From contig QHZQ01000010.1 of the NCBI GenBank assembly GCA_003224725.1, forward strand, positions 1-38,361: 38,361 nt of DNA, given 5' to 3'. Every line of letters starts with the position of its first letter. The first letter of the stretch is position 1. The notes below the pieces were generated by a model, which saw nothing but the letters and a program-made list of their open reading frames with translations, ran no database searches and was not told the origin of the DNA. Source of the stretch: Acidobacteriota bacterium (GTDB lineage: Bacteria; Acidobacteriota; Terriglobia; Versatilivoradales; Versatilivoraceae). Shown piece by piece: positions 8,704 to 11,069 of the stretch. The translations under genes and the position numbers were made by a program.

Positions 8704-10266
8704 TTATCGAGCATACTCCACAACTCGCATCTCACGGATCACGGTCACTTTAATCTGTCCGGGATATTGCAGTTCATTCTCAATCTTTCTGGCGATGTCC
8801 TTGGTCAGCCAGAAAGCCTGTTCGTCGCTAACCTTATCACTCTCCACCATAATCCGGATTTCACGTCCTGCCTGCAGGGCATAGCATTTGGACACACCCT
8901 CGAAAGAATCCACCAGACTCTCTAATTTCTCCAAGCGCTTGACATAGGTTTCCAGTATTTCCCGGCGAGCTCCTGGACGAGCGGCAGAAAGAGCGTCCGC
9001 GGCCTGGACCAACTGAGCTTCGACAGTGCGAAATTCCACGTCGAAGTGATGGGCTTCCATGGCATGAATGACCTCTTCGCTCTCGCCGCATTTACGCGCG
9101 ACCTGGACTCCAAGCTGGATATGAGTTCCTTCGACCTCGCGGTCGATGGCTTTGCCAATATCATGAATTAACCCGGCACGCTTGGCTACCGCCACGTTGG
9201 CTCCTATTTCTGCAGCCATCATGCCAGCGAGACTCGCCACTTCCTTAGAGTGATTCAAGACATTCTGGCCATAGCTGGTTCGATACCTGAGCCGTCCCAA
9301 AAGCCTGATGATCTCAGGGTGAAAGTCACGGATTCCCAATTCAAGAGTTGCTGCCTCACCCTCTTGTTGGATCTTAACATCAAGCTCCTTCTTCACCCTA
9401 TCAACGACCTCTTCAATGCGGGCCGGATGGATGCGGCCATCCGAGATCAATTTTTCAATAGACATTTTAGCGATTTCTCGCCGAATGGGATCGAATCCCG
9501 ACAAAATAATGGCCTCCGGTGTGTCGTCAATGATCAAATCAACTCCTGTAGCTACTTCTAAAGCTCGTATGTTTCTTCCTTCTCGACCAATGATTCGACC
9601 TTTCATTTCATCACTGGGAAGATCAACCACCGAGACCGCTGTCTCCACGACGTGCTCACCGGCACAGCGCTGAATGCAGGTACTTATGATTTTCTTGGCT
9701 TCTTCTTGGGCTGTAACTTTCGTCTCCTCTTCGATCTTTTTAATCATGCCAACAGCCTCGTGTTTGGCATCAGCTTCCATCTGTTTCAGCAACTGCCTCT
9801 TCGCCTCCTCTGCGGAAAGCCCAGAATGCATCTCCAGTTGGCGCTTTTGCTCCGCCAACAACTCCCTGGCTTTTCTTTCGTCAAAAGCAACTTCGCGTTC
9901 CCGGTCGCTAAGCTTTTTCTCTTTTTGGGAAAGCTCCCTTTCCCTCTGCGTCAGCGCTTGATCTTTTCTTTCGAGAAGCTCTTCCCTCTGGTTATGGCGT
10001 TTCTCCAGACCTTGTAACTCTAGTTTTCGATCTCTGGTTTGTTTTTCAACTTCGGCGCGAAGGCTAAGAATTTTATCCTTGGCTTCCAGCAACGCCTCTT
10101 TTTTAATGTGTTCAGCTTCCTTCTTAGAGTCTCCAACAATTTTCTGAGCAGTCTGTTCTGCCGCTTTTATAGAACTTAAAACCTGTCTGGCTTTTAAAAG
10201 CATCACAGAGAGCACAATGATTAAGCCAACCGCCACAGTAAGTGCTAAGTAAGCTACGGGGTTCAT
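8704..10266 (-). CDS. rny: Ribonuclease Y
   Basis: N-terminal membrane helix and coiled coil, KH motif GRIIGREGRNIRALE, HD domain (LNHSKEVASLAG...GLIHDIGKAID). Confidence 0.97.
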   Translation of the reverse strand: MNPVAYLALTVAVGLIIVLSVMLLKARQVLSSIKAAEQTAQKIVGDSKKEAEHIKKEALLEAKDKILSLRAEVEKQTRDRKLELQGLEKRHNQREELLERKDQALTQRERELSQKEKKLSDREREVAFDERKARELLAEQKRQLEMHSGLSAEEAKRQLLKQMEADAKHEAVGMIKKIEEETKVTAQEEAKKIISTCIQRCAGEHVVETAVSVVDLPSDEMKGRIIGREGRNIRALEVATGVDLIIDDTPEAIILSGFDPIRREIAKMSIEKLISDGRIHPARIEEVVDRVKKELDVKIQQEGEAATLELGIRDFHPEIIRLLGRLRYRTSYGQNVLNHSKEVASLAGMMAAEIGANVAVAKRAGLIHDIGKAIDREVEGTHIQLGVQVARKCGESEEVIHAMEAHHFDVEFRTVEAQLVQAADALSAARPGARREILETYVKRLEKLESLVDSFEGVSKCYALQAGREIRIMVESDKVSDEQAFWLTKDIARKIENELQYPGQIKVTVIREMRVVEYAR

Positions 10267-10499
10267 AGTCTCTCCTCAATAGTTTCAACCCGTAAACTCG
10301 TTCCTGGGAAATGACCGGAGCAGGCATCAGGCGTGCGGTTACAGCTAACGATACATGAGTCATCACGATTATTCCATTTCCCAATTGACGGTTTACGAAA
10401 GCATCATCAGCGTGCTACGTACTAACGTTTTGATTATAGTCCAGTGAATAGCGAATTACAATAAAAGGGATTCCGAGAGTCTCCAGCGAGGATATAAAA

Positions 10500-10526
10500 A
10501 GCGGGCTCAAACAAAAACCCCGCTTT
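10500..10526 (-). terminator. Rho-independent terminator downstream of the candidate 6S RNA
   Basis: On minus strand: AAAGCGGGG-TTTTTGTTTGA-GCCCGCTTTTTAT, a GC stem followed by a T-run. Confidence 0.7.
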
Positions 10527-10690
10527 GCCGTGAGGCACTCTATTTGGACCTGGATACCAGGTGGGCACCTTATACTATCACTTTAGGAAGCTTCATCTGG
10601 TGAAGCTTACACACGGTAAATAGAGTCAGGTTCCCATACAAATAGGTGTTGGTTCAAATAATGGCGCGCCAACACGTACATCGCAGGGTG
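10518..10690 (-). ncRNA. ssrS: Candidate 6S RNA (ssrS) between zapA and rny, about 170 nt
   Basis: Gap between zapA and rny; minus-strand RNA can form a closing stem ACCCUGC/GCGGGGU, an inner stem ACUCUAUUU/AAAUAGAGU (10618-10626 with 10537-10545), an apical hairpin AAGCUUCA/UGAAGCUU and a 3'-side bubble hairpin ACCUGG-UAU-CCAGGU; terminator follows. zapA-linked 6S is an established arrangement. Confidence 0.55.
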
Positions 10691-10775
10691 AGTGTGATTT
10701 TAGTTAGCAGCCCTGCTGTAGGTCAAGCAATATTTTCGACGACACGTTTTACACTTCATGTACCACGCTTCAATT

Positions 10776-11069
10776 TCATCTCTTCAGCACTTGATCAAGC
10801 AGACGAGAACACTCCGCACTCTTGTCGTAGACAATGGACTCAAATTCCTTTGAACGTTCACGTTCCTGGAATAATTCATCAGCGATGTTCAATGCCGCCA
10901 ACACCGCCACCTTTAAAGAATCCACGGTCTTGCTGCCCTGAGCAATCTCCCGCATCTTTTTGTCTACATAGGCGGCCAATTCCTTGATATAGTTCGACTC
11001 AATTCCACCCTTGATTTGGTAGAACTGATTGTAAATCTCTACACGGGTCAATCCTTCAACGCTTCGCAT
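10776..11069 (-). CDS. zapA: Cell division protein ZapA
   Basis: YIKELAAYVDKKMREIAQGSKTVDSLKVAVLAALNIADELFQ is a ZapA-type sequence. Confidence 0.88.
   Translation of the reverse strand: MRSVEGLTRVEIYNQFYQIKGGIESNYIKELAAYVDKKMREIAQGSKTVDSLKVAVLAALNIADELFQERERSKEFESIVYDKSAECSRLLDQVLKR

Follow-up and report, generated by a model that had tools for sequence, protein, structure and literature searches.

Which element occupies the gap between the zapA-like and rny-like genes on the minus strand of this Acidobacteriota contig? The first-pass annotation proposed a zapA-linked 6S RNA in a locus that no ORF explains. 6S RNAs are promoter-mimicking RNAs that shut down RNA polymerase. In a cmscan comparison with Rfam over the whole window (the entire stretch of 38,361 nt that was analysed), RF00013 is the sole match at the gathering threshold. 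It spans positions 10692–10513 on the minus strand with 75.5 bits, against a gathering score of 46.4, and covers model positions 1–187, i.e. the full length. A hit to the Spy779816 sRNA (20.2 bits against a gathering threshold of 67) was discarded as a chance match, and a genome-wide search found no second RF00013 match. The predicted fold of the 180-nt RNA has an energy of −62.5 kcal/mol, compared with −45.8 ± 4.2 kcal/mol for shuffled sequences (z = −4.0), a value reached by none of the 200 shuffles. The ORF list holds no credible sense ORF covering the gap, in agreement with the annotation. The zapA–rny gap encodes the single 6S RNA detected in this bacterium (Table 1).

Table 1. Elements of the 6S RNA locus and its flanks, in window positions
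Feature	Positions	Strand	Basis
zapA-like gene, 97 aa, upstream neighbour	10776–11069	−	ORF; the name zapA comes from the first-pass annotation and synteny
σ70-type promoter TTGACC-18-TAAAAT, immediately preceding the 6S gene	10697–10726	−	Motif; kept in the family
6S RNA (ssrS)	10513–10692	−	RF00013, 75.5 bits (gathering score 46.4), model 1–187; single match in the genome
Closing stem P1, 5′ arm ACCCUGC	10683–10689	−	93.6% of cells paired; 3/7 pairs with double-sided changes
Alternative 5′ hairpin GUGUUGG/CCAACAC	10646–10675	−	Complementary in the window; no covariation
P2 5′ strand UAUUUGaACC, predicted to template the pRNA	10651–10660	−	Rfam alignment; 89.3% paired, 3 pairs double-sided
Putative template base for pRNA initiation (C, specifying G), third nucleotide beyond GAACC; expected pRNA 5′-GUUGGUUCAAAUAAU	10648	−	Predicted from position
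Distal 5′ central bubble CACCUAUUUG, 5′ strand of a CBCH-like helix, pairs with CAAAUAgaGUG (10546–10536)	10639–10648	−	Covariation; cross-family swap
P3 and apical arm (GGGAACCU/AGGUGCCC; AAGCUUCA/UGAAGCUU)	10563–10635	−	91.1% and 84.1% paired; 10 pairs double-sided
3′ central-bubble hairpin ACCUGG-UAU-CCAGGU, borrows GGU from P2	10548–10562	−	6 bp; arm variation with pairing kept
P2 3′ strand GGUcCAAAUA, contested by P2, collapse helix and 3′-bubble hairpin	10541–10550	−	Covariation, strand comparison
Closing stem P1, 3′ arm GCGGGGU, doubling as the downstream hairpin's 5′ arm	10517–10523	−	Covariation, folding
U-rich tract UUUUUGUUU, adjoining the closing stem on its 3′ side	10509–10517	−	U-rich in 12/12 family members
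Downstream hairpin AAGCGGG (10525–10519)/CCCGCUU (10505–10499) + T5, shares closing-stem arm	10496–10525	−	Sequence, folding
Additional promoter-like site TTGTAA-17-TATAAT, preceding rny	10433–10461	−	Look-alike in several relatives
rny-like gene, 520 aa, downstream neighbour	8704–10266	−	ORF; 6S–rny order common to relatives

The gene order on the minus strand is pheT, an 83-aa ORF, zapA, the gap, rny and ymdB. The order pheT/zapA–6S–(rny)–ymdB is conserved in most loci: zapA lies upstream of the 6S RNA in most relatives, and the usual 6S location is between zapA and rny or ymdB. A position downstream of zapA is shared with beta- and gamma-proteobacterial 6S RNAs (PMC7641849). The locus differs from E. 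coli ssrS in its host, a member of the Acidobacteriota, and in its downstream neighbours, rny/ymdB here and ygfA (FAU1)/EVE there. An rny gene follows the 6S RNA in part of the window's family only, ymdB being directly next elsewhere. Since ymdB directly follows 6S in many Acidobacteriota, even in one genus (g2) within the same family, 6S and ymdB have kept together through the loss or relocation of rny. Among named sequences, the rny product has its closest homologues (78–80% identity) in contigs titled ‘Acidobacteria bacterium PMV_1.51’ and in a MAG titled Acidimicrobiia; the next-nearest are again titled Acidobacteria.

Read from the sequences, TTGACC and TAnnAT elements with a spacing of 17–18 nt are present just upstream of the RNA in 12/12 members of the window's family, which argues that the 6S RNA has its own promoter. 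A 6S RNA is expected to be a transcript of ∼160–200 nt from a dedicated promoter; here, the conserved promoter stops a few nucleotides short of the 6S 5′ end. The promoter-like site upstream of rny suggests that a distinct transcription unit begins after the 6S RNA, and a TTGTAA..TATGAT look-alike occurs in the downstream flank of several relatives, before ymdB. These features bear on the possibility that the gap is a zapA 3′ UTR or an rny leader, such as an attenuator with a terminator, in which the helices are incidental. Its placement between zapA and rny, in their orientation, and the terminator-like site before rny would fit such an arrangement, but the RF00013 score of 75.5 bits, the conserved promoter of the RNA itself, its persistence in many relatives where rny is missing downstream and ymdB comes next, and the promoter-like site owned by rny together make it extremely improbable.

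RF00013 matches occur in 69 of the 101 genomes searched, including 12/12 in the window's family. The other 32, which comprise family f4 and others and of which several are highly complete, lack a match under stricter filters; there the 6S RNA is either diverged or absent. From the 67 loci extracted, 30 were aligned, and a covariance model built from the alignment recovered all 67 again. The new model also finds rny-adjacent 6S genes in Acidobacteria of other groups, in Syntrophorhabdus and other ‘Deltaproteobacteria’, and in Cloacimonadota.

The RNA folds as a rod with a closing stem, a large central bubble and an apical arm. The full-length match, the closing stem, P2, the central bubble and the apical arm are all features of RF00013 and E. 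coli ssrS. In the main structure, 88.8% of cells are paired, 18 of 38 pairs show double-sided changes and none of 500 shuffles reaches the score. Double-sided changes are seen in 107 cells, compared with 42.5 expected from shuffles, and slid controls give 31–48%. Covariation thus backs all four helices, P1, P2, P3 and the apical one. Three elements drawn by the first-pass annotation are found in place, namely the closing stem, which is covariation-supported, an apical hairpin (10608–10588) and the small hairpin on the 3′ side of the bubble. The last has 6 bp in the window and, over the 67 loci, a mean of 5.1 bp versus 3.1 in shuffles, with 34 distinct arm pairs. Collectively, the zapA-linked 6S RNA is fully supported, with a score above the gathering threshold, compensatory changes in homologous gaps and a conserved dedicated promoter.

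Two other helices of the annotation fared less well. A 9-bp inner stem is made of complementary letters, but its ensemble probability is 0.000 and enforcing it costs ∼10 kcal/mol; with 45.5% of cells paired across 30 relatives, equal to slid controls, it was rejected. It lays claim to AAAUAGAGU, the P2 3′ strand, which the canonical P2 and the collapse helix described below both use. A hairpin said to compete for the 5′ half, GUGUUGG/CCAACAC, is complementary in the window but lacks covariation: among 29 distinct sequences, no pair is changed on both sides and 83.0% are paired, versus 83.2% in shuffles. P1 accounts for its GUG, and the pRNA start and P2 for its CCAAC, so it was dropped as a conserved element, and the comparison of relatives gives no sign of selection on it. 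In window folding, it dominates only in the read-through transcript (probability 0.99), where it may form.

The distal 5′ bubble is complementary to the 3′ strand of P2 and can form with it a central bubble collapse helix. In an alignment not fitted to this helix, 80.9% of cells are paired, 6/9 pairs show double-sided changes and the covariation score is reached by 0/500 shuffles, while slid controls are at most 45% paired. A register without the 1–2 nt bulge (‘CBCHalt’) was set aside as worse, with 70.9% against 81.6%. Duplexes between 5′ bubble and 3′ strand average −7.8 kcal/mol for a locus's own strands versus −4.9 kcal/mol for strands swapped between families, and only 0.14% of permutations do as well in a swap test with one representative per family. 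The strands co-vary by family, i.e. UAUUUG/CAAAUA in f1, f3 and f8, GAUCCU/AGGAUC in f11, UCAAUGAAC/GUUCAUUGA in part of f9 and GGAUCU/GGAUCU in part of f6, so that the motif is replaced and pairing is kept. The helix is not universal: f5, most of f9 and of f7, part of f6 and the f1 member L023 have it weakly or not at all.

Collapse helices are known from the 6S-1 RNA of B. subtilis and the 6S RNA of A. aeolicus, where the distal 5′ bubble can also pair with the P2 3′ strand; within the open literature searched, the helix is named in PMC8876501 alone. A short 3′-bubble hairpin and a G start of the pRNA, predicted here, are further likenesses. Unlike in these two RNAs, the helix in Acidobacteriota has 9–11 bp with clear compensatory changes across families, and the 3′-bubble hairpin also takes GGU from P2. 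In this it resembles the gamma-proteobacterial extended 3′-bubble (release) hairpin, which invades the P2 3′ strand, but it borrows 3 nt of P2 and has 6 bp, not 9.

The collapse helix could be an alternative fold of P2 in the free RNA instead of a release element induced by the pRNA. In the isolated window RNA, P2 has a probability of 0.69 and the collapse helix 0.28, and the enforced structures differ by 0.1 kcal/mol. An A–C mismatch at 10547/10654 is present in the window's genus and in most of the family, with U–G in L007 and L012; it splits P2 into 6 + 3 bp, which makes P2 nearly isoenergetic with the collapse helix. Against a free-state role, the helix has the homologous position and the strand usage of the one that aids release upon pRNA synthesis in B. 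subtilis (PMC8876501), and bound RNA polymerase is expected to hold the bubble open. A purely free-state fold is therefore unlikely, and a role in release is preferred.

For this role, the following route is proposed. The ssrS gene would be transcribed from its own σ70-type promoter, between zapA and rny, into a 6S RNA of ∼180 nt that folds as a promoter-like rod composed of the closing stem P1, P2, the central bubble, P3 and the apical arm. The rod is predicted to bind the housekeeping RNA polymerase holoenzyme and block promoters. The polymerase would be released by synthesising a short pRNA on a template that runs from the 5′ bubble into P2. This pRNA is predicted to start at 10648 and to begin 5′-GUUGGUUC, as placed relative to E. 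coli U44. The prediction also draws on B. subtilis 6S-1, whose pRNA starts with GTP (PMC8876501). Opening of P2 would free its 3′ strand, of which GGU would pass to the 3′-bubble hairpin ACCUGG/CCAGGU and CAAAUA..GUG would pair with the distal 5′ bubble as the collapse helix, so that the bubble closes.

After the closing stem, the mean T fraction in the family is 0.74 in the first 10 nt versus 0.33 further on; over the 67 loci, the values after the extended closing stem are 0.47 and 0.25. Since the tract after the closing stem is U-rich in all 12 family members, the closing stem with its U-tract is the better terminator candidate, and the junction of the two is the most likely site of 3′-end formation. 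P1 would be an unusual terminator, with a structured ‘loop’ of ∼160 nt. Other families have a longer closing stem, for example CGGAG/CUCCG before a T run in L019 (1501–1694) and a 12-bp stem UUAGGAGUAGUC/GAUUACUCCUAA in L002 (1501–1683); these stems run straight into or near a U-tract, as if they were terminator hairpins. For E. coli ssrS, Rho-dependent termination and 3′ processing are reported (Chae et al. 2011, as cited in PMC7641849), in contrast to the abutting U-tract found here.

The first-pass annotation saw in the GCGGG arm, shared between the closing stem and a terminator, two mutually exclusive outcomes. The sharing is real, AAGCGGG pairing with CCCGCUU ahead of a run of T's. In silico, the mean probability of the closing stem in the window falls from 1.00 for an RNA ending at 10513 to 0.00 with 30 nt added: the extended transcript gives up P1 for the downstream hairpin together with the 5′ hairpin and the collapse helix, and its minimum free energy favours the terminator over P1 by 7.2 kcal/mol. 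This would suit an arm that evolved as a choice between terminator and closing stem, with an RNA active only after removal of the 3′ terminator hairpin, and pairing of GCGGG with a downstream CCCGC is also found in L006, L008, L010 and L016. Yet a U-tailed hairpin on the shared arm occurs in only 2/12 family members, the window and, in weaker form, its genus mate L010, whereas L004, L007, L012, L013 and L023 retain the closing stem at 0.85–1.00 even with a 45-nt extension. In addition, the U-tract precedes the 3′ arm of the hairpin, and polymerase would pause there with P1 already formed. Exclusivity thus holds for the window in silico and is not conserved in relatives, and an evolved switch is improbable. 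As the overlap is real in this species but unconserved, there is probably no built-in switch, and the closing stem with its U-tract stays the preferred 3′ end. The downstream hairpin is probably a lineage-specific back-up terminator; since it is the predicted fold of the window's read-through transcript, some termination may take place there, and such a transcript could form the closing stem only once trimmed.

One could combine these elements into a hybrid release type of the Acidobacteriota, in which the split P2 strand serves a gamma-proteobacterial hairpin and a long Bacillus-style helix under selection, together with a closing-stem-arm terminator that keeps the precursor inactive until trimmed in the window's lineage. 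We give this joint proposal a small chance; if the hybrid were true, selection would be strong enough to leave compensatory changes. The reading of the locus as ssrS, i.e. a 6S RNA with its own promoter, predicted polymerase binding, pRNA release and a 3′ end at the P1/U-tract junction, has a probability of ∼85%.

In conclusion, the gap RNA is a well-supported further member of the known 6S family, with a well-supported candidate release helix. The 6S RNA, its linkage to zapA in beta- and gamma-proteobacteria (PMC7641849), the collapse helix and the release hairpin were already known. No article naming 6S RNA, zapA and Acidobacteria together was found in the open literature searched, and as far as that literature shows, comparative support for a collapse helix in Acidobacteriota is new. 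The overlap at the 3′ end calls for caution, being switch-like in one genome and mostly not across relatives. For a phylum that has been little studied, the analysis provides a 6S RNA along with its promoter, structure and synteny. Covariation supports a collapse helix for which the earlier basis was in vitro work on B. subtilis and Aquifex, and this comparative support makes the generality of the collapse-helix release step testable.
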